Shown: positions 10,152 through 25,359 of the stretch, piece by piece | Position numbering within the stretch: position 1 is the stretch's first letter | How the letters are laid out: each line of letters opens with the position of its first letter | Source of the DNA: Pseudomonadota bacterium | Lineage (GTDB): Bacteria; Pseudomonadota; Alphaproteobacteria; Rhizobiales; JAKPQE01 | Assembly (NCBI GenBank): GCA_029572955.1 | Contig: JAKPQE010000060.1 | Location: 1 to 32,733, forward strand | DNA length: 32,733 nucleotides | Reading direction: 5' to 3' | Notes under the pieces: model-generated | What the model was told of the DNA's origin: nothing | Seen by the model: only the letters and a program-made list of their open reading frames with translations | Database searches by the model: none | Made by a program: the position numbers and the translations under genes

Positions 10152-10180
10152 AAGGTAAGAAGCCGGCCCGGCCGCGTCAA
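10152..10180 (-). promoter_or_regulatory. Possible trxA promoter
   Basis: On the minus strand TTGACG (10180-10175) overlaps the addA stop codon, and TACCTT (10157-10152) follows after 17 bases. The -35 is good and the -10 is poor. It would let trxA be transcribed independently of the long addAB message. Confidence 0.35.
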
Positions 10181-10192
10181 GCCGGGCTTTTT
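10166..10192. terminator. Hairpin with T-run overlapping the addA 3' end
   Basis: GCCCGGC (10166-10172) and GCCGGGC (10181-10187) form a 7-bp stem. On the + strand it is followed directly by TTTTT (10188-10192), so it would stop transcription coming rightward antisense to trxA and addA. On the minus strand the stem lies at the addA stop and is followed by a pyrimidine-rich stretch without a clean T-run. Confidence 0.45.
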
Positions 10193-13100
10193 CGCGCGAT
10201 CTCGGCAAGCGTCGCGTCGAGACTGTCGTCAGCAATCTGCATCAGCCGCGGCCCGGCCGTCCACAGCAGGGCGCAGCCGATCCGTTTGTCCGGATAGACC
10301 TCGGCAACGAGGCGCCGGTAGAGCGCGAGCTGGGCGACATGGGCCGGCGGCACCGCCGCGGCGGTCGCGGGCACCGCCCGGCCGGTCTTGTAATCGACGA
10401 TGAGGACGTCGTTTTCACCGATGACGAGGCGATCGATCCGGCCCTCGACGCGGAACCGCCGGCCGTCGATCTCGACCTCGCCGTCGACCGGCACCTCACC
10501 CCGGCTCGTGGCGGTAAAGAGCGGCGCGAACGCCGGGGCGTCGAGGACGGCGAGCGCCTCGGCCGCGATCGTGCCGGCGTCCGGGCCGGTCTCGCCGAGG
10601 ACTTCGAGAACCCGGGCGGCCATCGCCGGCCGGTCGGGCGCCCCGATCGGCGCCAGCGATTCGAGTAGCCGGTGGACGAGTTCGCCGCGCCGCGCCGCGG
10701 CGCCGCCACCGCCGGTAAAGGCGATCGGCGCCGCGCCGATGTCGGAGGGGCTGAGGCGCCGGGACGGCCGCCGCGCGGCAGGCGCCGGCCGGGCGGTCCA
10801 GTCGGGCAGGGCGATCGTCTCGGCCTTGCCGGCCGCCACCTCGATCCGCTCGCCGGACGCAGCCGCGCGCGCCCGCACCAGCACCGGCTCGTCGAGGCCG
10901 GGCATTGCCTCCTCGACCGAGGTCGGCTCCAGGGCACCCCGCACCATGGCGTACCAGGAGCCCTCGGGCACGCCGGTCTTGCCGGCATGGGCCGAGATGT
11001 AGAGCTCGTCGCCGGCCCGCGTCATCGCGACATAGAGCAGGCGATGATACTCCTCCTCGGCCCGGGCGTGTTCCGTCTCGAGCGCGGCGACATGCGCGGC
11101 GGTCCGCTCGGCCTTGCGCGGATTGAAGACGAGCGCCGGCGCCGCATCCGGCGGCGTCTGCGGCCGTTCGATCGCCAGCACCGCCGGATCGTGCCGCGCG
11201 CTCGGCACCGAGGCGGTGTCGGCGAGGAAGACGACCGGTGCCTCGAGGCCCTTGGCGCCGTGCACCGTCATCACCCGGATTTCGTCGCGGGCGATGTCCA
11301 TGTCGCGCTTGATCTCCGGTTCGGCGCTGGTCAGCCGGGCAAGGAAGCCCTGCAGCGTCGCCGGCCCGGCCCGTTCGGCGTCGAGCGCCTGGGCAAGGAA
11401 CTCGTCGAGCGCCTCGTTCGCCTCGGCGCCGAGCCGCGCCTCGAACGCCTTGCGCCCGCCACCCGGGCCGAGCACCTCGGCGAAGAATTCGAAGGGCGGC
11501 ACGAAATCGGCGATGCGCCGCCAGGCGGCGAGCCGGTCGAGCGCGGCGCCGGCGCGCCTGTCCGTCGCCGCCGCCCGTTCGAGGCCGGCGAACAGCGGCC
11601 GGCCCGGCTCGGCGGTGAAGCGCACGAGGTCGTCGTCGGAAAAGCCGAAGAGCGGGCTCTTCAGCACCACCGCGAGGCCGTAGTCGTCCGGCGGCAGCAG
11701 GCAGAAATCGGCGAGCGCCATCAGATCGGCGACGGCGACGTGCTCGGTCAGCACCAGCCGGTCGGCACCGGCGACCGGCAGGCCGCGTTCCTTCAGCGCC
11801 CGCAGCATCTCGTTGGCGAAGGCGCCGCGCTTGCGCACGAGGACGAGAATGTCGCCGGGGCTAAGCGGCCTCCCGTCGATCGCCCGCCGCGCCGGCCCCG
11901 CGAACCAGCCGGCGATCCTGTCGGCGATCGCCGCCGCGTGGCGCCGCTCCGGGCTCGCCTCGCCGAGACTGTCGACCGGGTCCCACCAGTTCTCCGGCTC
12001 CTCGGTGCCCGGCGCCTTGAGGAACGGCGGCCAGATCTCGACCCGGCCGGCGGCGGTCTGGCGGATCGCCTCGTGCACCGTCGGCTCGGCGACCTCCGAA
12101 AGCCCGTAATAGCGGTCCGGCTCGGAGAACACCGTGTCGACCGCGTCGAGGACGTCGCTCGTCGAGCGGAAGGAGAGGGTGAGCCGCACCGGCTCGAAGG
12201 CGGCCTCGGCGTTCCGTGCTCGCGCCTCGAAGCTGCGCTTCATGCGCTCGAAATAGGCCGGGATCGCGCCCTGGAACGAGTAGATCGACTGCTTCTCGTC
12301 GCCGACCGCGAAGATCGTGCGGGTGAGGCGTCGCGCCGTTTCGCCGGCAAAAAACTCCCCGGCCAGGGCCTCGATCACCTCCCACTGGCGCGGGCTGGTG
12401 TCCTGCGCCTCGTCGACGAGGATGTGGTCGATGCCGCGGTCGAGCTTGTACTGCACCCAGAGCGCCGCATCGCCGCGCTTCAGGAGCCGCGCCGTCCTGA
12501 CGACGAGGTCCTCGTAGTCGAGCAGCCCGCGCCGCGCCTTGGCCCGCTCGTAGCGGGCGATCACCGCCTCGCCGAGGCTGACGAGCGCGCCCGTCGCGGC
12601 AAGGGCAAAGGCGGCGCGCCGGCGATCGAGAAGGTCGATGAGCCGGCTCGTTTCCGTGGCGATCCGTGCGGCAAGGTCGGGGAAGAGGGTGTTCATCGCC
12701 CCGGTCACGACGCTGCTGCGCGGCTTGTCCTCGGTGGTCAGGAGGAACAGCTTCCAGGCCAGAGCCCGCTCCTCCCGCGACGTCGCCGCGGCGAAGGCGA
12801 CGAGGCGTCCGGCCGCGTCCTGGTTCTTCTTCGACGAGGCGGCGAACGCCTCGACGAGCCGCGCCCGATAGGCCGCCGGAAACTCGGGCGGATCGATGAT
12901 CTCGTCGAGAAGCGCGTCGGGGTCCTCGTCGACCGCGACGCCGAGGACGATGGCGGCGGCCGCTGCGATCCCGCCCGCCTCCCGCGTCTCGGCGGCGAGG
13001 CGTGAGAGAGCGTCGCGCTTGGCGACGAGTTCCTCGAGGGCCTCGCGCAGGCCGTCTTCCGAGCTTGCCTCGACCAGTCGCGTCAGCGCCCGGCCCCAGG

Positions 13101-13638
13101 CGCTGTCGGGTTCGAGCACGGCGCGCTCGAACACCTCGGCCCGCGCCTCGGCGAGAAGCTCGGCGGCGGTCGTCTCGTCGAGCACCTCGAAATGGCCCGA
13201 GACCCCGGCCTCGAACGGGAAGGCGTGCAGCAGCCGGTCGCAGAAGGCGTGGATCGTCTGGATCTTGAGGCCGCCCGGCGTCTCCAGCGCCTCGGCGAAG
13301 AGCCGCCGCGCCCGCGCCCGCTCCTCCGGCGCGATCGGCCGGCCCTCGATCGCCGACAGCGCGGCTTCGAGATCGTCGTCGCCGGCGACCGCCCATTTCC
13401 CGAGTTCCTTGAAGACCCGGTTCGACATTTCGGCCGCCGCCGCCTTGGTGAAGGTGAGGCAGAGGATCTTCGCCGGATGGGTGCCGGCGAGCAGCAGCCG
13501 CTCGACCCGCTGGGCCAGCACATGGGTCTTGCCCGAGCCGGCATTGGCCGACACCCAGGCCGAGCGGCGCGGGTCCGAGGCGGTCCGCTGCCGGGCGATC
13601 GTCGTCTCGGGAATGGCGGGGAGTTGCTTGCCGCTCAT
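10177..13638 (-). CDS. addA: Double-strand break repair helicase-nuclease AddA
   Basis: The motor subunit of AddAB, which resects double-strand breaks and loads RecA. It has 1153 residues. Superfamily 1A helicase motifs are intact: Walker A 'SANAGSGKTHV' (Lys37), 'ILCLTFTKAAAAEM' (motif Ia), 'ILVDEAQDTSPRQW' (motif II, about residue 408), 'FAVGDEKQSIYSFQGA' (III), 'LTLSFRS' (IV), 'VMTVHGAKGLEAPVVFL' (V) and 'YVAMTRAGDELYI' (VI). The C-terminal RecB-type nuclease is present: 'VEGRIDRLVIGENDVLIVDYKTGR' near residue 1080. The start ATG overlaps the addB stop by 4 bases; the frame upstream of it lies inside addB and is not AddA. Confidence 0.96.
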   Translation of the reverse strand: MSGKQLPAIPETTIARQRTASDPRRSAWVSANAGSGKTHVLAQRVERLLLAGTHPAKILCLTFTKAAAAEMSNRVFKELGKWAVAGDDDLEAALSAIEGRPIAPEERARARRLFAEALETPGGLKIQTIHAFCDRLLHAFPFEAGVSGHFEVLDETTAAELLAEARAEVFERAVLEPDSAWGRALTRLVEASSEDGLREALEELVAKRDALSRLAAETREAGGIAAAAAIVLGVAVDEDPDALLDEIIDPPEFPAAYRARLVEAFAASSKKNQDAAGRLVAFAAATSREERALAWKLFLLTTEDKPRSSVVTGAMNTLFPDLAARIATETSRLIDLLDRRRAAFALAATGALVSLGEAVIARYERAKARRGLLDYEDLVVRTARLLKRGDAALWVQYKLDRGIDHILVDEAQDTSPRQWEVIEALAGEFFAGETARRLTRTIFAVGDEKQSIYSFQGAIPAYFERMKRSFEARARNAEAAFEPVRLTLSFRSTSDVLDAVDTVFSEPDRYYGLSEVAEPTVHEAIRQTAAGRVEIWPPFLKAPGTEEPENWWDPVDSLGEASPERRHAAAIADRIAGWFAGPARRAIDGRPLSPGDILVLVRKRGAFANEMLRALKERGLPVAGADRLVLTEHVAVADLMALADFCLLPPDDYGLAVVLKSPLFGFSDDDLVRFTAEPGRPLFAGLERAAATDRRAGAALDRLAAWRRIADFVPPFEFFAEVLGPGGGRKAFEARLGAEANEALDEFLAQALDAERAGPATLQGFLARLTSAEPEIKRDMDIARDEIRVMTVHGAKGLEAPVVFLADTASVPSARHDPAVLAIERPQTPPDAAPALVFNPRKAERTAAHVAALETEHARAEEEYHRLLYVAMTRAGDELYISAHAGKTGVPEGSWYAMVRGALEPTSVEEAMPGLDEPVLVRARAAASGERIEVAAGKAETIALPDWTARPAPAARRPSRRLSPSDIGAAPIAFTGGGGAAARRGELVHRLLESLAPIGAPDRPAMAARVLEVLGETGPDAGTIAAEALAVLDAPAFAPLFTATSRGEVPVDGEVEIDGRRFRVEGRIDRLVIGENDVLIVDYKTGRAVPATAAAVPPAHVAQLALYRRLVAEVYPDKRIGCALLWTAGPRLMQIADDSLDATLAEIARKSPA

Positions 13639-16600
13639 GGCTCGCCCTCCTCGCCGTCGGTCGCCGTCCACTCGGCGACCCGCGCCAGCCGGTCGTAGTC
13701 GCCGGCCTCGCGCGCCTTCATCGGTCGCGCCCTGGAGAGGTAGCCCCGGTCGGGGTCGCGATAGGCCCTGGCGAGCCCGACGAGCTGGTCGAACGCGGCA
13801 TCGATCACCTCGTCGGCGGAAAGCCCGGACTTCTTGTCGAGCGCCGGCTTTTCCTCGCCGGCCGGGTCGCGGCCGCTGATCTGCACCCATTTGAGCTCGG
13901 AGACGGAGCGCCCCGCCGCGACGCCGGCGAAGGCGCCGGCCCGCGCCATCGCGCCTTCGAGGGCGAGCTGCGGCGCGAACCCGGCAAGCACCCGCCTGGC
14001 GCTCGGCGGCGTGCCGGTCTTGAAGTCGAGAATGGCGAGCGTGCCGTCGGCGAGCTCGTCGATGCGGTCGGCCCGGCCGGTGAGCGCGAAGGGACCGTCG
14101 GCGAGCGAAATTTCGAGCCGGCCGCCGATCTCGGCGTGGCGCGCGGCGACGGCCGCGTCGCGCCCCGCCTCCCAGTCGACATACCAGCCGGCGATCCGCT
14201 CGAAGCGGCGCCACCACAGCGCATGGGTCTCGGGAAAGGCGGCGAGCGGCGCGAAGAGCTCGGCGCCGATGTCGAGGAGCCGGGCCCGTGCCGTCGCGTC
14301 GAAGGCGCCCTGCCACTCGGTGGCGAAGCGCCCGAGCACCTCGTGATAGAGCGTGCCGCGCGTCGAGAAGTCCGGCTCGGCGCCGATCGGATCGAGCGGG
14401 TCGAGGCCGAGCACGTGGCGCGCGAAGATCGCGTAAGGATCGCGGACGAGCTTCTCGATCTCGGTGACCGAGAGCTTCTGCGGCCGCCGGTCGAGCGGCG
14501 GCTTCGGCGCCGGCCGCGCTGCCGGCCGCGGCGGCCCCGCCGCCCGGTCGATCGCCCGCGCCCGGTCGAGATGGCGCTTGCCCGCCGCGCGCATCGCCGC
14601 GGCGGCGGCGGGTCCGGCGACGGCGAGAAGCCGCTGCAGCCAGCGCGAGGGAACGCTCGGTGCGCCGCCGACCCGGTCGGCCCGGCTGACGATGACCGCC
14701 GGCATGCCGAGGCCTTGCGCGAAGTCGTGGGCGGAAAGGCCGATCCGCCGCTCCGGCGGCTCCAGCCCCATGTCGCGGCGCATCGCCCGCGACAGCCAGG
14801 GATCGGTGCGCGTGTCGGCCGGCCAGACGCCCTCGTTGAGACCGGCGAGAACCAGGAGGTCGACGCTCTGCAGGCGCGCTTCGAGCTGCCCCCAGATGTG
14901 GACGCGCGGCGCCTCGTGCCGTGGTCGGCGCACGACATGGCCGGCAAGGAGCGCCTCGAAGACGGCGCCATAGTCGCCGGGGCCGACGGCAAAGCCGGTG
15001 TCGTCGGCGCCGGTCGCTTCGAGAAGCCTGAGGAGCGCCGCGTCGGCGTCCTCGGCGAGGAGGCCGCCGGGCGCAGCCGCATCCTCGGTGGCGACGGCGA
15101 GGAGGGCGCCGAGATGGCCGGCGGCGAGTTCGCGGAGCGGCAGCTCGTCGCGTGTCGTGCCCAGCGCTTCGAGCGGGGCGAGCGCCCTGCCGAGGCGGGC
15201 GAGGATGTCGGCCGCCGCCTCCCAGTCGGCGTTGCCGAGGCGCGAGACCGGGCGCGCCACCCGCAGCGCCTTCCCGGAGATCGCCGCCCGCACGTCGGCG
15301 AGACTTTCGCGGAGGCCGGCGGTGCCCGGCCGCGGCCGGCCGTTGCGCAGGAGCGCCAGTTCGAGCGCCTGCGCCGCCCGCCGCGTTTCGGCCCGCCCCT
15401 GTCCGAGGCCGCAGAGCGGATGCTTCAGGAGCGACAGCACCGCGACGGGCTCGGCAGCCGAGAGCGCGACCTCGGCAACGAGCCGGGCGAGCACGGCGGC
15501 CGGCATTGCCGTCAGCGGCTGGCCGGCGGAATCGTCGAGGGCGACATCCCAGCGCCTCAGTTCCACCGCGACGCGGCGGGCAAGGCCGCGGTCCGGCGTG
15601 ACGAGGGCGGCGACGGCATCGGGCGTCTCGATCGCCTCGCGCAGGGCAAGGGCGATGGCGAGTGCCTCCTCGGCCTCGTTGCGCGCTTCCAGAAGGGCGA
15701 TGCCGGCGACCGCCTCGGTCCGCGCCTTGTCGCCGAGGCGCTGCGCGACATCGCTCCAGCGATCGGTCGTCTCGGCCGGGCGCATCGCCTCGGAAAGGAG
15801 GCCGGCGCGCAGCCGTGCGGCGCCTTCGGCCGGCGCCAGTTCCTCGACGTCGTCGCGGCTCGCGCCCATCGCCTCGATCAGCCGCTTCATGCCGTATTGC
15901 GGATGGGCGAAGGCCGGCTCGCCGTCGCTGATCGCCGCCCAGCTTTCGTCGTCGAGATGCCTGTCGAGGCCGGGCAGCACCACCGCGCCGCGGTCGAGAC
16001 CGGCGATCGCCGCGAGCAGCCGCGCCGTCGCCGGCACCGAGCCGGTCGAGCCCGCCGCGATCACCGGGCCCTGCGGTGGCGCGGCCCCAAGGCGGGCGGT
16101 CTCGGCCTCGATCAGCATGTTGCGCCGGGCCGCCGGGTCGCTGCGGCCATTGGCGGCGAGATAGTCCGGCCAGCGCTCCGTGGCGATCTTCAGGAAATCG
16201 AGGGTCAGCGCCCAGTGCGCGGCAAGCTCGGCCGGCACGAGCGTCGCAAGGCCCGCCCAGCCGACGCCCTCGATCTCGACGGCATCCATCAGCCGGGCAA
16301 GGTCGTCGGCGAGCCGTACCGCGTCGGCCGGCGACTGCGGCAGCGGGATCTGCGGCGCGGCACCGTCGGCGACCGCGAGGCGCTGCGTCCAGCCGCGAAT
16401 GAGGCGGGCGAGCGCCAGCCGGCGTTCGAGCACCGGCACGGCGGCCGGCAGCAGCAGGCGGTCCGTGGATGCCTCCTCGGCATCGATCAGGATGTCTTCC
16501 TCGTCGATGTCGCCGATCGGCCGGATCGCCGGCAGGATCAGGGCGGCGCGCCCGAGCCGCGCTCTCAGCGCATCGGCAAGGCCGCGCGCCGCGCGCCGCG

Positions 16601-16760
16601 TCGGCAGGTAGATCGTCGTATCGGCAAGGGCGAGCGGATCGGCGTCGAAGGCGACGCCGGGGATCAGCCGGCCGGAGACGATGGCATCGGCAAGGGTGGC
16701 GAGGAACGGAGCGGTCGCGGAGATCGAGAACAGGTTCGGCGCGCGCCGGGTCGTCGTCAT
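13635..16760 (-). CDS. addB: Double-strand break repair protein AddB (alphaproteobacterial type)
   Basis: The second subunit of AddAB, which supplies a nuclease site and, in the Bacillus enzyme, Chi recognition. The protein has 1041 residues. The N-terminal helicase-like part begins 'NLFSISATAPFLATLADAI', where a Walker A would sit, but has no GKT, so it should not hydrolyse ATP. The C-terminal nuclease is intact: 'YHEVLGRFATEW' and 'LTGRADRIDELADGTLAILDFKTG' (about residues 890-916). The region that carries the first Fe-S Cys in Bacillus AddB reads 'LVRDPYAIFARHVLG', and there is no Cys in the nuclease domain at all. ATG at 16760 follows an AGAAGG-type site; the open frame upstream runs into murU. 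Confidence 0.93.
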   Translation of the reverse strand: MTTTRRAPNLFSISATAPFLATLADAIVSGRLIPGVAFDADPLALADTTIYLPTRRAARGLADALRARLGRAALILPAIRPIGDIDEEDILIDAEEASTDRLLLPAAVPVLERRLALARLIRGWTQRLAVADGAAPQIPLPQSPADAVRLADDLARLMDAVEIEGVGWAGLATLVPAELAAHWALTLDFLKIATERWPDYLAANGRSDPAARRNMLIEAETARLGAAPPQGPVIAAGSTGSVPATARLLAAIAGLDRGAVVLPGLDRHLDDESWAAISDGEPAFAHPQYGMKRLIEAMGASRDDVEELAPAEGAARLRAGLLSEAMRPAETTDRWSDVAQRLGDKARTEAVAGIALLEARNEAEEALAIALALREAIETPDAVAALVTPDRGLARRVAVELRRWDVALDDSAGQPLTAMPAAVLARLVAEVALSAAEPVAVLSLLKHPLCGLGQGRAETRRAAQALELALLRNGRPRPGTAGLRESLADVRAAISGKALRVARPVSRLGNADWEAAADILARLGRALAPLEALGTTRDELPLRELAAGHLGALLAVATEDAAAPGGLLAEDADAALLRLLEATGADDTGFAVGPGDYGAVFEALLAGHVVRRPRHEAPRVHIWGQLEARLQSVDLLVLAGLNEGVWPADTRTDPWLSRAMRRDMGLEPPERRIGLSAHDFAQGLGMPAVIVSRADRVGGAPSVPSRWLQRLLAVAGPAAAAAMRAAGKRHLDRARAIDRAAGPPRPAARPAPKPPLDRRPQKLSVTEIEKLVRDPYAIFARHVLGLDPLDPIGAEPDFSTRGTLYHEVLGRFATEWQGAFDATARARLLDIGAELFAPLAAFPETHALWWRRFERIAGWYVDWEAGRDAAVAARHAEIGGRLEISLADGPFALTGRADRIDELADGTLAILDFKTGTPPSARRVLAGFAPQLALEGAMARAGAFAGVAAGRSVSELKWVQISGRDPAGEEKPALDKKSGLSADEVIDAAFDQLVGLARAYRDPDRGYLSRARPMKAREAGDYDRLARVAEWTATDGEEGEP

Positions 16761-16767
16761 CGCCTTC

Positions 16768-17493
16768 TCATGCGGTGCTCTCGGCAAGGCAGGTCTCGGC
16801 AAGGCCGATGGCATCCGGCGTGCCGACATGCATCCAGGTGCCGTCGAGGCGCAGGCCGAACAGCCGCCCGGCCTCGATCGCCCGGTCGAAGAGGACGTTG
16901 AGTGAGAACGGTCCCGCCGGCGCGCCCTCGAACAGGCGCGGATGCAGGATCGCCGCGCCGGTATAGACGAACGGCGCGATCCGCCGCTCGATCCGCCGGG
17001 TCAGGCGGCCGTCGCCATCGAGCACGAAGTCGCCGGCGCCGTCATAGCCGACGCTGGAGACCGTCGAGGCAAGGAGCAGCAGCCCGTCCATCCGCTCCGG
17101 GTCGTAGGTCTCGGCGAGGCGCAGGAGGTTCGGGCGCGGCCCCTCGATCCAGATCGAATCCGTGTTGAGTACGAAGAACGGCTCGGTGCCGATGAGCGGC
17201 AGCGCCTTGGTGACGCCGCCGCCGGTCTCCAGAAGCTCGGCGCGCTCGTCGGAAATCGTGATCTCGGGCTTCGTCCGCCGCCCGACGCGGACCTCGACGA
17301 GGTCGGCGAGATAATGGACGTTGACCACCGCCCGCGGCACGCCGATCTCGACGAGGCGGTCGAGCACCTGGTCGATCAGCGCCCGGCTGGCGACCTCGAC
17401 GAGCGGTTTCGGCACGGTCGCGGTGATCGGGCGCATGCGCTTGCCGAGGCCGGCGGCGAGCACCATGGCGGTCTGAGGTCTGGAGCCAGTCAT
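16768..17493 (-). CDS. murU: Nucleotidyltransferase, MurU type (MurNAc-1-phosphate uridylyltransferase)
   Basis: In the peptidoglycan recycling route of Pseudomonas and Caulobacter, MurU turns MurNAc-1-phosphate into UDP-MurNAc, bypassing GlcNAc. The 241-residue protein has the sugar-nucleotidyltransferase signature 'AMVLAAGLGKRMRPITATVP' followed by KPL, then 'ISDERAELLETGGGVTKALP', the metal-binding 'FFVLNTDSIWIEGP', and C-terminal 'WMHVGTPDAIGLAE'. The substrate call leans on context: it is 21 bases downstream of the amgK domain, the kinase that makes MurNAc-1-phosphate. addB starts 7 bases after its stop. Mannose-1-phosphate guanylyltransferase annotation is the main alternative. Confidence 0.85.
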   Translation of the reverse strand: MTGSRPQTAMVLAAGLGKRMRPITATVPKPLVEVASRALIDQVLDRLVEIGVPRAVVNVHYLADLVEVRVGRRTKPEITISDERAELLETGGGVTKALPLIGTEPFFVLNTDSIWIEGPRPNLLRLAETYDPERMDGLLLLASTVSSVGYDGAGDFVLDGDGRLTRRIERRIAPFVYTGAAILHPRLFEGAPAGPFSLNVLFDRAIEAGRLFGLRLDGTWMHVGTPDAIGLAETCLAESTA

Positions 17494-17514
17494 GCCGGAC
17501 CCTGTCGAGAGGTT

Positions 17515-19041
17515 TCAGAGGTCGCCGGACGCGATTTCCGGCAGATGCGTGTCATACCAGACCGCGAGCGGCTGCAACACCGGGTGTCGCAGCGACTTGG
17601 CGAGATAGCGGGCGACCCGTGGCATGTGGGCAAGGTAAGCCGGCTTGCCGTCACGCTTGTCGAGGCGTGCGAAGATGCCGAGCACCTTGGTCGCGCGCTG
17701 CGCCGCCATGATCGCATAGGCCGCGCGGAAGGCGGTCTCGTCGAAATCTCCGGCCTTGGCCCGCGCCGCCGCGTAGCGATCGAGAAGCGCCGCCTCGAGA
17801 TCGTCGGGGACGGTGACGCGCGCGTCCTGGAGCAGCGAGGCGACGTCGTAGGCCGCCGGGCCGACGACGGTGTCCTGGAAATCGATGATGCCGATGCGGC
17901 CGACGCCGACACGGGTCTCGAGCCAGATGAGGTTCGGCGAATGGTAGTCGCGCAGCACCCAGCTGTCCTCGGCGGCGACGAGGCGCACGAAGGCCGCCCG
18001 CCACAGCGCCCGGAACTCCTCCTCGGCGGCCGCGTCGAGCCGGCGGCCGTGCCGGTGCGGCGCGTACCAGTCGATGAGCAGCTCGACCTCGATCGTCATC
18101 GCCGCGGCGTCGTAGGGCGGCACCTCGTAGCCGCTGCCGTCCGGCAGCGACACCCGCCGCGGCCACTGCCGGCGGTGCAGGGCGGCGAGGCAGTCGACGG
18201 CGACGCCGTAGCGCTCGGCGATCGGGCCGGCGGCGTCGACGACCTTGTCCTCGCCGAGGTCTTCGAGCAGCAGGAAGCCGGCGTCGAGGTCGATGCCGTA
18301 GAGCGCCGGGGCGGAAAAGCCGCTCTCGAAGAGCGTCCAGCCGATGGCGACGAAGGCGCGGACGTCCTCGGCGAGCCGCGCCACCTGCGAATAGGGCTTG
18401 CCGTAGCGCGGCACCACCGGCCCGTCCGGCTGGCGCGGCGCGTTCATCAGCAGCGCCCGGCGCCGCGGCTCGCCGACGCGCTCGTAGGCGCGGGCCGAGG
18501 CGTCGCCCTGCAGATGGCGCCGGGTGGCATTGCCCCAGCCGTTGCGGGCAAGGAAGGCACGCGCCGCAAAGCTGCGGGAAAAGCGCGAAGCGGCCGATTC
18601 CGGCACGGTGATCCGCGCCTGGCGCAGGTTCGATCCGGCCGCGATCGAGAGGCCGATGCGGATCGCCGCGCCGGGCATGCGGTCGCCGCCCTTCTGCGGC
18701 CATTCGACGAGCACCGCGCCGCCGTCGAGGGCGTCCTCGAGGCCGAGTTCGTCGAGTTCTTCCGGGTCTTCGAGCCGGTAGAGGTCGAAATGCGAGACCG
18801 TGAGCCGCGCCGTTTCGTAGGTCTGCACCAGCGTGAAGGTCGGGCTCGGCACCTCGAGCGCATCGTCGTCGGCGATCGCCCGGACGATTCCCCGCGCCAG
18901 CGTCGACTTGCCGGCGCCGAGGTCGCCGTCGAGAAGCACCGCGTCGCCGCGCCTGAGGGCCGCGGCGATGTCCTCGCCGAGCCGCACCGTCGCGGCCTCG
19001 TCGGCAAGCTCGAACGACCACTCCATCGCCGCCGGCTCCAT
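17515..19041 (-). CDS. Fused TsaE ATPase and AmgK-type sugar kinase
   Basis: One 508-residue frame joins two unrelated enzymes. Residues 1 to about 155 are TsaE, the ATPase that supports t6A37 tRNA modification: P-loop 'DGDLGAGKSTLARGI' (Lys45), 'SPTFTLVQTYE', 'HFDLYRLEDPEELDELG' and 'VLVEWPQKGGDRMP'. The rest is an aminoglycoside-phosphotransferase fold matching AmgK, the anomeric MurNAc/GlcNAc kinase: 'LLLEDLGEDKV', catalytic 'WVLRDYHSPNLIWL' and metal-binding 'IGIIDFQDTVVGPAAYDVASLLQD'. The fusion is known in Rhizobiales from memory. Start choice is unsure: ATG 19041 is used; GTG 19050 (overlapping the kinase stop as GTGA) and ATG 19026 (GGAG 9 bases before) are alternatives. murU follows, completing the recycling pair. 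Confidence 0.9.
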   Translation of the reverse strand: MEPAAMEWSFELADEAATVRLGEDIAAALRRGDAVLLDGDLGAGKSTLARGIVRAIADDDALEVPSPTFTLVQTYETARLTVSHFDLYRLEDPEELDELGLEDALDGGAVLVEWPQKGGDRMPGAAIRIGLSIAAGSNLRQARITVPESAASRFSRSFAARAFLARNGWGNATRRHLQGDASARAYERVGEPRRRALLMNAPRQPDGPVVPRYGKPYSQVARLAEDVRAFVAIGWTLFESGFSAPALYGIDLDAGFLLLEDLGEDKVVDAAGPIAERYGVAVDCLAALHRRQWPRRVSLPDGSGYEVPPYDAAAMTIEVELLIDWYAPHRHGRRLDAAAEEEFRALWRAAFVRLVAAEDSWVLRDYHSPNLIWLETRVGVGRIGIIDFQDTVVGPAAYDVASLLQDARVTVPDDLEAALLDRYAAARAKAGDFDETAFRAAYAIMAAQRATKVLGIFARLDKRDGKPAYLAHMPRVARYLAKSLRHPVLQPLAVWYDTHLPEIASGDL

Positions 19042-19046
19042 CCCCG

Positions 19047-21563
19047 TCACTCGGCCGCTTCTTCCAGCGTCTCGCCGGGGCGCAGCGGGAAGCGGCAGAT
19101 GACCGTGGTGCCGACTCCTTCGGCCGAGCGGATCTCGACCCGGCCGCCATGCAGCTCGACGAAGCTCCTGACGATCGACAGGCCGAGCCCGGCGCCGCGC
19201 CGCCGGCCCGTCGACGACCGGCTCTCGAAGCGCTCGAAGGCGGCATCGATGAACTCGCTCGGCATGCCGCAGCCGTGATCGGCGACCGAGAAGCCGACCG
19301 ACCTGCCCTGGCGCCAGGCATTCACCTCGACCTTGCCGCCCTCGTCGGAGAAGGCGACGGCGTTGGACAGCAGGTTGAAGAGCACCTGGCGGATGCGTTT
19401 TTCGTCGCCCTCGAAGGTGCCGATGTCGTCGGGCACGGAGGTGACGATCTCGATGCTCGATTCGACCAGCCGGTCCTGGATGCCCTCGATGGCGGCGTCG
19501 ATCGTGCCGGCGACGTCGACCGTACCGACGTCGATCTCCATGATGCCCGCATCGATCGTCGCGAGGTCGAGAATGTCGTTGATGATGGCGAGCAGCGCCT
19601 TCGACGAGCTCATGATGTAGCCCGTGTATTCGCGCTGCTTGTTGTTGAGCTCGCCGATCTTGGCGTCGGACAGGAGCTGGGCGAAGCCGATGATGTTGGT
19701 CAGCGGCGAGCGCAGCTCGTAGGAGACGTGGTGGACGAAGGCGTTCTTCAGATGCGCCGCGGTTTCCAGCGCCTCGTTCTTCTCGGCGAGCATGCGGGCG
19801 ACGGCGACGCTCGCCGAGACGTCGAGGAAGGTCAGCATCGTCGCGCCGTCCGGCAGCGGGATCGCCGCGAAGTCGACGACGCTCTGGTCGGCGCGCTCCA
19901 TGCGGCCGGCGATCGGCTCGCGGCTGTCGGCAAGGCCGGTGACGGCCGCCTTCAGCCGGTCCCAGACGGCGCCGTCGTCGTGCAGCCGCCGGCACAGGGT
20001 CGTGATCTCGCCGAAATGCGGATTGCCGTCGAGATCGCCGGCCGAGAGGTGCCAGATGCCGGCAAACGCCGGGCTGAAGAGCCGCAGCTTGCCGTCCGAG
20101 CCGAACACCGCGACGCCCTCGGCGAGGTGATCGAAGCTCTCGCGCTGCACCCGGTCGAGCGACTTGTAGCGGCTTTCGAGGTCGAGCCGTTCGGTGACGT
20201 TCTCGTAGATCCAGATGACGCCGCCCTGCGGATGCGGGCTGGCAAGGACGCGCAGCGTCTGGCCGTCCGGCAGGTGCCAGTAGTCCTCGACGGTCTCGAC
20301 CGAGCGATAGGCTTCCTGCAGCGAGGCGCGCCATTCCCGGTAGTTGGCCTGTTCGGGCAGCTTGTGATTGACCCGGAGCTTGTCGAGAACGACGGCCTCC
20401 TCGGGCGCCCCGTCGAGGAAGGCCGGGTCGACACCGAACAGCTTGCGATAGGCGGCGTTGTGGAAGTGCAGGCGCTTGTCGGCGCCGAAGATCGCGACCG
20501 CGCTCGCCAGTTCGTCGAGCGTGCGGGCATGGAAGTCGATCGTCCGTTTCAGTTCGGCCTGGGCCCGCTCGACCTCGCTGACGTCGGTGGCGATGCCGGC
20601 GCTGCCGCTGTCCGAGGCGACGTCGATGATGTCGAAGATCCGGCGCTGGCCGGCGACGACCAGCGGCTGGCGGAAACGCGCATCCGCCGAGCCCTTGTGG
20701 CTGCGCGCGAGGTTCTCCCGCCCGGCGGTGTCGAGGAGTTCCGTCCCGGCGGCGACGGCCGCCTCGGGATCGGCGGCATCGACCGCCTTGGCATAGGCCG
20801 CGTTGACCCAGGCGAGGGCGCCGTCGGCGTCGCGCAGCCAGACCGGCATCGGCAGCGCCTCGAGCAGCTTGCGGATGCCTTCGACGTCGCGCTGCAGGGT
20901 GGCGTGGCGGCGGGACGTCGAGGCGAGCTCCAGCCGGTCGCCGTCGAGGTCCTCGATCCACAGGATCGCCCGCCCGCCGGCGGTGCAGCCGCGCGCCTCG
21001 ACGAGCGCGCCGCCCTGCGTCGCGAGATCGATGCGGAACGCCTCGCCGCGGTTCCGGAGCAGCGTCACGGCCTCGTCGAGCACCTGCGCCCCGTCCGGGT
21101 GCAGCCAGCTGCCGAAGGCGAGGAGCCCGGCCCGTTCGGCCGGCACGTTCGAGCCGGTCCGCGCACGGCCGCCAAGCACGCTCGGGGCCGCGTCCGATCC
21201 CGACCAGACGATGACGGTGCGGTCCTCGGCGTCGAGAATGGCCTCGGTTCGGTCGACCGCGGCGCGCAGGTCGGCGATCTCGCCGCGCTGGCGCGCCTCG
21301 ACCTCGTTCGCCCGGTTGCGCACGCGGATCAAGGCGACGGCGGCGATGACGGCGAAGGCGACGAGGCCGATGTCGAGGGCGAGGATGGTGGCCTGATGGC
21401 GGCCGATGAAGCGCGACGCCTCGGCGATCGGCGGCGACAGCGCCGCATCCTGCGCCCGCGCCGCGACCGAGGCGAGCGGAATCGCCCCTGCCGCCAGAAC
21501 GGCTTTCAGGCTCGCCAGTCGGGACTCTCGTTTACGCGCACGCCACAGCTGGTGGTCGGGCAT
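19047..21563 (-). CDS. divL: DivL-like multi-PAS sensor kinase with Tyr at the phospho-acceptor site
   Basis: An 838-residue membrane sensor. It has a hydrophobic N-terminal stretch (about 17-38) and a transmembrane helix (about 58-80), then several PAS-like domains (about 225-330, 340-460, 470-590), a dimerisation helix pair (about 605-672) and an HATPase domain (about 715-828) with N box 'NLLSNAVAFSD', G1 'VADHGCGMP' and G2 'GAGLGLSIV'. The H box reads 'FVHHVSYELRSPLTNII': Tyr615 replaces the His of the usual SHELR. That substitution is the hallmark of Caulobacter DivL, which regulates CckA and hence CtrA through DivK. Orthology is inferred from this motif and architecture. ATG at 21563 has GGAAGGA upstream. 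The C-terminal end abuts tsaE-amgK. Confidence 0.78.
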   Translation of the reverse strand: MPDHQLWRARKRESRLASLKAVLAAGAIPLASVAARAQDAALSPPIAEASRFIGRHQATILALDIGLVAFAVIAAVALIRVRNRANEVEARQRGEIADLRAAVDRTEAILDAEDRTVIVWSGSDAAPSVLGGRARTGSNVPAERAGLLAFGSWLHPDGAQVLDEAVTLLRNRGEAFRIDLATQGGALVEARGCTAGGRAILWIEDLDGDRLELASTSRRHATLQRDVEGIRKLLEALPMPVWLRDADGALAWVNAAYAKAVDAADPEAAVAAGTELLDTAGRENLARSHKGSADARFRQPLVVAGQRRIFDIIDVASDSGSAGIATDVSEVERAQAELKRTIDFHARTLDELASAVAIFGADKRLHFHNAAYRKLFGVDPAFLDGAPEEAVVLDKLRVNHKLPEQANYREWRASLQEAYRSVETVEDYWHLPDGQTLRVLASPHPQGGVIWIYENVTERLDLESRYKSLDRVQRESFDHLAEGVAVFGSDGKLRLFSPAFAGIWHLSAGDLDGNPHFGEITTLCRRLHDDGAVWDRLKAAVTGLADSREPIAGRMERADQSVVDFAAIPLPDGATMLTFLDVSASVAVARMLAEKNEALETAAHLKNAFVHHVSYELRSPLTNIIGFAQLLSDAKIGELNNKQREYTGYIMSSSKALLAIINDILDLATIDAGIMEIDVGTVDVAGTIDAAIEGIQDRLVESSIEIVTSVPDDIGTFEGDEKRIRQVLFNLLSNAVAFSDEGGKVEVNAWRQGRSVGFSVADHGCGMPSEFIDAAFERFESRSSTGRRRGAGLGLSIVRSFVELHGGRVEIRSAEGVGTTVICRFPLRPGETLEEAAE

Positions 21564-21824
21564 GCCGTCTTCCTTCCGCAGATTTTTCTTTCGGCACGCC
21601 CCGAATGACGCCCGCCGCCGTGGGGCCCCGCCGCGCGGAGCCGAATCACCTGACTTTACCCCGATCGGGAATCGGGCAGAAGGAGTACAAAACGCGGCCT
21701 CCACCGCCCGGCATCGGCCAGCGCCCGGCGGCTTGCCGAAACCGCCAGGAATTGCAGCGGCTTGACGTCTGTACGGGAAGTGGTGGAGAGACGGTCGCCC
21801 TGGCGGCGCCTGTCCTTGGCTCGA
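21564..21824. other. Upstream region of the divL-like gene
   Basis: Together with the two terminators to its right, this is the only stretch above 300 bases without a gene (21564-21914). No open frame here has family features. It holds two GANTC sites (listed separately), the palindrome CCCGATCGGG (21660-21669) and no convincing -35/-10 pair. No TTAA-N7-TTAA CtrA box is visible. Confidence 0.5.
21643..21673. promoter_or_regulatory. Two GANTC (CcrM methylation) sites upstream of the divL-like gene
   Basis: GAATC occurs at 21643-21647 and again at 21669-21673, 80 and 106 bases before the divL-like start. GANTC is the target of the alphaproteobacterial cell-cycle methyltransferase CcrM, and GcrA acts at promoters carrying it. 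Whether these sites regulate the gene is inference. Confidence 0.4.
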
Positions 21825-21914: not shown

Positions 21915-23312
<1,398 letters not shown>

Positions 23313-23463
23313 CGCCTGATCTCCGGGTGAGGCGCCATCGCGCCGCCCCGGTCCCTTCGTTCCGGAATGACGGGAAGCGGGGCCTCGGGTCCGGTCGATG
23401 CCGGGGGCGCCCGCCGCTTTGCCGGCATGCCTCCCATGGTCGGGAGCACGCCGAAGACGCGCC

Positions 23464-23492
23464 TCTATAACAAACCCGCCGCAAGCGGGCAA
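23464..23492 (-). promoter_or_regulatory. Promoter of ahcY
   Basis: On the minus strand TTGCCC (23492-23487) and TATAGA (23469-23464) are exactly 17 bases apart. TATAGA matches the -10 consensus at four of six positions and stands out in GC-rich DNA. The leader to the ahcY ATG would be about 145 bases. A short CCCGC/GCGGG hairpin lies in the spacer and could instead be part of a moeB terminator. Confidence 0.6.
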
Positions 23493-23499
23493 CCGAGAC

Positions 23500-23515
23500 A
23501 TAAAGAAATCTTTAT
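23500..23515. promoter_or_regulatory. AT-rich palindrome upstream of the ahcY promoter, likely operator
   Basis: ATAAAGA (23500-23506) and TCTTTAT (23509-23515) form a perfect 7-2-7 palindrome, 8 bases upstream of the ahcY -35. Sixteen bases with two G/C is striking here. It resembles the operators I recall for ArsR-family methionine-cycle regulators (SahR/SamR type); that link is inference. Confidence 0.6.
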
Positions 23516-24390: not shown

Positions 24391-25359
24391 TCACAGTCCT
24401 TCGAAGAGGGCCGTCGACAGATAGCGCTCGGCGAAGGAGGGAATGATGAGGACGATGTTCTTGCCCTTCATCTCCGGCCGCTTGCCGATCTCGACGGCCG
24501 CCGCGATCGCCGCGCCCGAGGAGATGCCGACCGGGATGCCCTCGATGCGGGCGACCTTGCGGGCAAAGGCGAAGGCGGTGTCGTTGTCGACGCGCAGGAT
24601 CTCGTCGATCACCGAGCGGTCGAGCACGCCCGGCACGAAGCCGGCGCCGATCCCCTGGATCTTGTGCGGACCGGGCGAGCCGCCCGAGAGCACCGGGCTC
24701 GCCTCCGGCTCGATCGCGACGACGCGAAGCGCCGGATTGCGCAGCTTCAGCGTCTGGCCGACGCCGGTGATCGTGCCGCCCGTGCCGACGCCGGAGACGA
24801 AGACGTCGACCTTGCCGGCGGTGTCGTTCCAGATTTCCTCGGCCGTGGTCACCCGGTGGATCGCCGGGTTGGCCGGGTTCTCGAACTGCTGCGGCATGAT
24901 CGCGTCGGGATTCTCCGCGACGATCTCCTCGGCCTTGGCGACGGCGCCCTTCATGCCCTTCTCGGCCGGGGTCAGCACCAGCTCGGCGCCGAGCAGGGCG
25001 AACATCTTGCGCCGCTCGATCGACATCGATTCCGGCATGACCAGCATCAGGCGGATACCGCGCGCCGCCGCCGTGAAGGCGAGCGCGATGCCGGTATTGC
25101 CCGAGGTCGGCTCGACGAGGACCGTGTTCGGTCCGATCTGGCCGCTCTTCTCGAGCGCGTCGATCATCGCGACACCGATGCGGTCCTTGACGCTCGCGAG
25201 CGGGTTGAAGAACTCCAGCTTGGCAAGGAGGCTGGCGCCGACGCCCTCGGTCTCGGCGATGCGGTCGAGACGGACGATCGGCGTGTTGCCGATGGTCTCG
25301 GTGATGGACGAATAGATGCGGCCACGGCCACGGCCGGGGCGGGCGGCGTCATTGCTCAT
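24391..25359 (-). CDS. cysK: Cysteine synthase A (O-acetylserine sulfhydrylase)
   Basis: Makes cysteine from O-acetylserine and sulfide, using PLP. The protein has 322 residues. Lys58 in '[11 protein letters not shown]' is the PLP Lys, '[13 protein letters not shown]' is the substrate loop, '[12 protein letters not shown]' binds the PLP phosphate, and '[15 protein letters not shown]' is near the end. '[11 protein letters not shown]' fits CysK better than CysM. ATG at 25359 is preceded by GAGGAT. The gene is followed by the moeB-like gene and preceded by a weak terminator-like hairpin after dut. Confidence 0.95.

Follow-up and report, generated by a model that had tools for sequence, protein, structure and literature searches.

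The window, by which we mean the whole 32,733-nucleotide stretch that was analysed, carries on its minus strand a gene for a multi-PAS pseudo-histidine kinase within a tightly packed set of neighbours. The genes and features discussed here are listed below in order of position.

10177..13638, minus strand: addA, with UvrD helicase and PD-(D/E)XK domains; start chosen by spacing
13635..16760, minus strand: addB (TIGR02786, 1107.3 bits, cut-off 486.5); start chosen by spacing
16768..17493, minus strand: MurU-like nucleotidyltransferase (NF045697, 273.9 bits, under the 370-bit cut-off)
17515..19041, minus strand: fused tsaE-amgK ORF; the tsaE part passes TIGR00150, and AmgK is the best family for the remainder, under its cut-off
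19047..21563, minus strand: divL, a multi-PAS pseudo-histidine kinase of 838 aa, with its ATG at 21563
19080..19409, minus strand: HATPase_c domain, residues 719-828 (Pfam PF02518, 98.8 bits, cut-off 26.4)
19545..19748, minus strand: HisKA (DHp) domain, residues 606-673 (Pfam PF00512, 62.3 bits, cut-off 26.9)
19719..19721, minus strand: codon TAC for Tyr615, which replaces the phospho-accepting His and aligns with Tyr550 of Caulobacter DivL
20181..20519, minus strand: best PAS_7 stretch, residues 349-461 (Pfam)
21915..23501, minus strand: ahcY, the upstream neighbour (TIGR00936, 609 bits, cut-off 497.6), with the ORF as listed

Some of these starts have alternatives: an in-frame GTG lies upstream of the divL start at 21704, tsaE-amgK could also begin at 19050 or 19026, and the true ahcY start is probably further in, since the family match begins at residue 69. 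Upstream of ahcY lie cysK (24391-25359) and dut, coaBC and ABC1/ubiB-like ORFs. Long plus-strand ORFs (16942-19278 and 19149-21608) oppose tsaE-amgK and divL, and are probably shadow frames of high-GC coding sequence. The divL product has the domain order of DivL, PAS followed by HisKA and HATPase_c, with two PAS_7 stretches in all and a partial PAS_8 match at residues 230-259 (Pfam). The translation shows a hydrophobic run near residue 60.

The original prediction placed this gene with tsaE-amgK, murU and addAB in one transcription unit that would link cell-cycle control, wall recycling and break repair. These neighbours are present as claimed, tightly packed and often conserved, with amgK and murU scoring below the NCBIfam cut-offs. 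One possible tsaE-amgK start (19041) is 5 bases past the divL stop, murU starts 21 bases past the tsaE-amgK ORF, the addB ATG (16760) is 7 bases past murU, and the addA ATG (13638) overlaps the addB stop. Among the matches listed, 69 of the 74 named loci with enough flank have tsaE downstream of divL and on its strand; the corresponding figures are 69/73 for amgK, 65/71 for murU and 54/64 for addB. Where both tsaE and amgK-like matches occur, they form a single open frame in 73 of 77 loci, the window's included. The corresponding genes of Brucella abortus belong to the 16-gene bvrR/bvrS operon (PMC9491525). Tight spacing, conserved order and the Brucella operon make it likely that the predicted unit from divL to addA is transcribed as one, a prediction that is not new; shared position alone is no proof of a regulatory link between the cell cycle, wall recycling and repair.

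The ORF at 19047-21563 (minus strand, 838 aa) includes AFVHHVSYELRSPLTNIIGF, and its H box reads VSYELRSPL. The predicted replacement of the phospho-accepting His by Tyr was borne out: the residue is 615, encoded by TAC, inside the interval 19680-19760 to which it had been assigned. At the same site His is present in the other 28 of the 29 HisKA matches of this genome (profile matches read by eye; four of the 28 score under Pfam's cut-off), three of which read HQ, HG and HA there. The accompanying claim of a full set of ATP-binding boxes is broadly correct (N box NLLSNAVAFS, G1 DHGCGM, G2 GAGLGLS), although the window protein has Ala where DivJ and the PleC-like kinases have the N-box Lys (NAxKFT). 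Tyr was found in all 30 of the loci L030-L059 (the window and 29 loci of the same taxonomic order, with 41 genomes searched) and in all of the best 80 named loci. The latter were the best 80 kept from a scan with the patterns VSY[EQ]LR[STA]PLT and LDL[AT]T[IV]DAG, which leans to Tyr because one pattern contains it. The recurrence of Tyr in both sets rules out a one-base sequencing error (TAC for CAC).

We also read the site in a class-level set, obtained by a full-length profile search of 192 genomes and comprising 113 loci from 111 genomes. Tyr was present in 87 loci, another residue in 19 (His 5, Phe 3, Gln 3, Thr 2, Leu 2 and Val, Ser, Gly and Lys 1 each), and seven had no kinase domain. 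DivL has been described as conserving Tyr throughout the Alphaproteobacteria except for Ala in Magnetospirillum magneticum (PMC4211667), and the spread of residues is wider here than PMC4211667 and PMC2877005 describe; no mention of the Tyr was found in the passages of PMC5189948. Phe occupies the Tyr position in L145 (G098) and L162 (G198), two loci from genomes of the window's own taxonomic order, and both genomes have a DivK match.

Clustering with DivL in a tree of multi-PAS kinases had been proposed as confirmation of the assignment. In the tree of 86 kinase domains (21 from this genome, 27 from the Caulobacter genome and 38 DivL-like), the window protein clusters with Caulobacter DivL, apart from DivJ and the PleC-like kinase. 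Before filtering there were 29 loci from this genome and 30 (of 43 matches) from the Caulobacter reference G308, and rows covering fewer than 180 kinase-profile positions were dropped; it is a quick tree in which 41 of the 83 inner forks, about half, are open, i.e. unsupported. G308, found among 119 genomes of one family, contains a segment that matches 4Q20 at 100% and was therefore taken as Caulobacter. The starred clade (SH-aLRT 99) has 41 rows: the window protein, the 38 DivL-like rows, Caulobacter DivL (L283) and L286 (G308:C10:4809-5012), a long-branched Caulobacter kinase whose placement there may be a long-branch artefact. Caulobacter DivJ and the PleC-like kinase fall outside it and pair with this genome's L004 and L005, with support values of 92 and 89 that do not reach the star. 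The DivJ label comes from NF050805 (1072.2 bits, cut-off 1000), while CAUL_L266 is presumably PleC-like, judging by its length, and matched no PleC model in the family search. The best PDB match of the window protein is the DivL kinase region 4Q20 (6.3e-38), and no DivL-specific NCBIfam model was among the best 25 of the 77 families matching. This genome has a single full-length DivL match, the next (3.9e-45) covering the kinase region alone. Many Rhizobiales have two divL homologues (PMC8116508); a second was not seen here. The 19047..21563 protein is almost certainly a DivL orthologue, from a bacterium that the nearest named relatives place probably in Hyphomicrobiales. Its role as an inactive reader of DivK~P, which in studied relatives serves to time cell division, would follow that of relatives in published work.

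How else might the Tyr be explained? The protein might be a kinase of the DivJ, PleC or PdhS type that recently lost its His through mutation or sequencing error, and its kinase region is indeed distantly DivJ-like. Its NF050805 score of 130.4 bits is, however, far below the 1000-bit equivalog cut-off, the tree groups it with DivL, and this score and the tree together rule out membership of DivJ, PleC or PdhS. A recent loss also sits badly with the Tyr in all 30 loci L030-L059, and the window neighbourhood is that found at divL in most named loci among the matches listed; we consider this explanation practically untenable. The original prediction further raised the case that His611 or His612, beside the Tyr, is the true phospho-site, which would make the protein an active histidine kinase. 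Close to the window His612 is common (76/80 best named loci, 22/29 same-order loci), but the position is Asn in 59 of the 87 Tyr-bearing class-level rows, and 611 is variable across the aligned DivL-like loci. The His of the aligned DivJ and PleC-like kinases moreover falls in the Tyr column. Both residues were rejected as the alternative phospho-site on these counts, and an active kinase using either is very improbable.

A tyrosine kinase was reportedly an early proposal for DivL, and the retained ATP-binding domain would suit autophosphorylation on Tyr615. Against it, 14 of the 113 class-level loci carry Phe, Val, Ser, Thr, Gly, Lys, Gln or Leu at this position. DivL is also inactive in vitro, and its Y550F variant still binds DivK~P (PMC4211667); a tyrosine kinase is accordingly most unlikely.

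The same genome encodes a DivK homologue (1m5t, 5.9e-58) followed by a PleD-like ORF (read by eye), CckA (L017; equivalog NF046020, 1291.1 bits, cut-off 1000; PDB match 5idj) and one ChpT-family protein (PF10090, 8.5e-35); PF10090 was found in one of 14 control genomes, that of Caulobacter. Another locus, L003, was ruled out as CckA, its best PDB matches being other kinases. Caulobacter DivL is without kinase activity in vitro and binds DivK~P through its DHp-CA region (PMC4211667), and the mechanism described for DivL is that of an inactive kinase whose free form activates CckA (PMC4211667, PMC11500502, PMC7200025). By analogy with these relatives, the window DivL would not autophosphorylate and its DHp-CA region would bind phosphorylated DivK. 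Free DivL would keep the CckA kinase on, and its withdrawal by DivK~P would turn CckA into a phosphatase, so that CtrA~P falls.

Seven positions for DivK~P binding or allostery were taken from PMC4211667. The window protein is identical to Caulobacter DivL at four (Y550, R553, T557 and A601), as it is at the E adjoining the Tyr, and changed at three (Y562F, H579Y and D595N). In Caulobacter, Y562A and H579E weaken DivK~P binding (PMC4211667); the Phe, Tyr and Asn at 562, 579 and 595 are also the residues of the aligned DivJ and PleC-like kinases. In Hyphomonas neptunium DivL is essential and DivK dispensable (PMC7200025), which means that DivK is not necessarily the chief input here.

Across 112 class-level loci (the window counted once, through L140, and the second copies L173 and L245 dropped), those with Tyr had a strong DivK match in 78 cases and none in nine, while those without Tyr, meaning another residue or no kinase domain, had one in 10 and none in 15 (Fisher p about 1e-6, kinship ignored). 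A strong match was defined by a threshold of our own (E <= 1e-40) in one sequence search. Among seven independent pairs, the averages were 1.6 in the same direction, 0.1 in the opposite direction and 5.3 with no difference (median p 1, a comparison with no power). The link between DivK presence and Tyr is suggestive only.

The window protein is a Tyr member within this survey, and the other forms are of interest in their own right. L205 (G181), L211 (G073) and L160 (G118) are full-length and DivL-like, carry His at the phospho-site and retain every catalytic motif: all three have HELRTPLN, the N-box Lys (NSIKFT in L205 and L211, NAIKFT in L160) and both G boxes intact. G181 and G073 share the window's arrangement, with ahcY upstream of divL and tsaE, amgK, murU and addB following it; none of these five was found in the 14 kb read beside the G118 locus. 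Of the remaining His forms, L229 (G211) has the neighbourhood and a degenerate ATPase domain, and the fifth, L244 (G081), has its His in a kinase piece whose alignment is separate from that of the ORF's DivL part. The G181/G073 pair is sister to two Tyr-bearing rows (support 99 in one tree, 89 in another), so a His/Tyr change occurred near there, in one direction or the other. The AU test (p 0.211) did not reject one origin of the His rows L160, L205, L211 and L229. D_L160 and the pair D_L205/D_L211 stand at the unresolved base of the DivL clade in the kinase-domain tree, a position compatible with an ancestral as well as a regained His. Changes between Tyr and not-Tyr across the class number at least seven on starred branches and 12 on the best tree, kinase-less forms counted.

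A tentative reading of these sequences, which we hold to be possible but would not favour, is that Tyr is no fixed state of DivL: in at least one lineage with His in the standard neighbourhood, DivL may be a real kinase or phosphatase acting on DivK, and the pseudokinase state may be reversible or the His partly ancestral. Counting against an active role for the natural His forms, the Y550H change in Caulobacter supports viability but leaves growth and cell shape defective, and the altered protein needs stimulation by DivK~P to autophosphorylate (PMC4211667). We found no report of a His-bearing DivL in the open-licence literature searched.

Kinase-less DivL-like proteins were seen at L243/L332 (G202), L241/L331 (G103), L245, L248, L249, L250 and L251, whose frames, 560-648 aa long, stop short of the kinase domain. 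In G202, assembled into about 160 contigs, ahcY still lies upstream and DivK is strongly matched (4.7e-53); its 16 kb contain a single further kinase ORF, which sits several kb upstream. Kinase-less DivL has been described as always occurring in genomes without DivK (PMC2877005), and G202 therefore argues against that rule, as one case judged from sequence.

The result confirms that a DivL input is present in the organism's CtrA control circuit, and it names the gene correctly. The survey matters slightly more than the window gene, as His, other-residue and kinase-less DivL are natural variants with which to ask what purpose the kinase fold of DivL serves and how a kinase turns into a sensor.

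Among known systems, Caulobacter DivL (4Q20; L283) shares with the window protein the Tyr at the H-box site, R553, T557, A601 and its clade, whereas residues 562, 579 and 595 differ as given above (Y562F, H579Y, D595N). In contrast to the window, tsaE, amgK, murU, addB, addA and ahcY are all unmatched beside Caulobacter divL (L320, 20 kb read). Sinorhizobium meliloti DivL is a close known system, likened here by description (PMC11500502). The Brucella bvrR/bvrS operon resembles the window in carrying ahcY, divL, tsaE, a nucleotidyltransferase gene, addB and addA in the same order, and differs in that a gene of unknown function separates ahcY from divL and that bvrR/bvrS and PTS genes lie upstream (PMC9491525). 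The Tyr, inactivity and DivK~P-sensing role of DivL are already published (PMC4211667), as is an operon with divL and such neighbours for Brucella (PMC9491525). The window DivL is an ordinary orthologue of a known pseudokinase, the observation being correct and already well described, and the spread of non-Tyr forms across the class is the less familiar side result.
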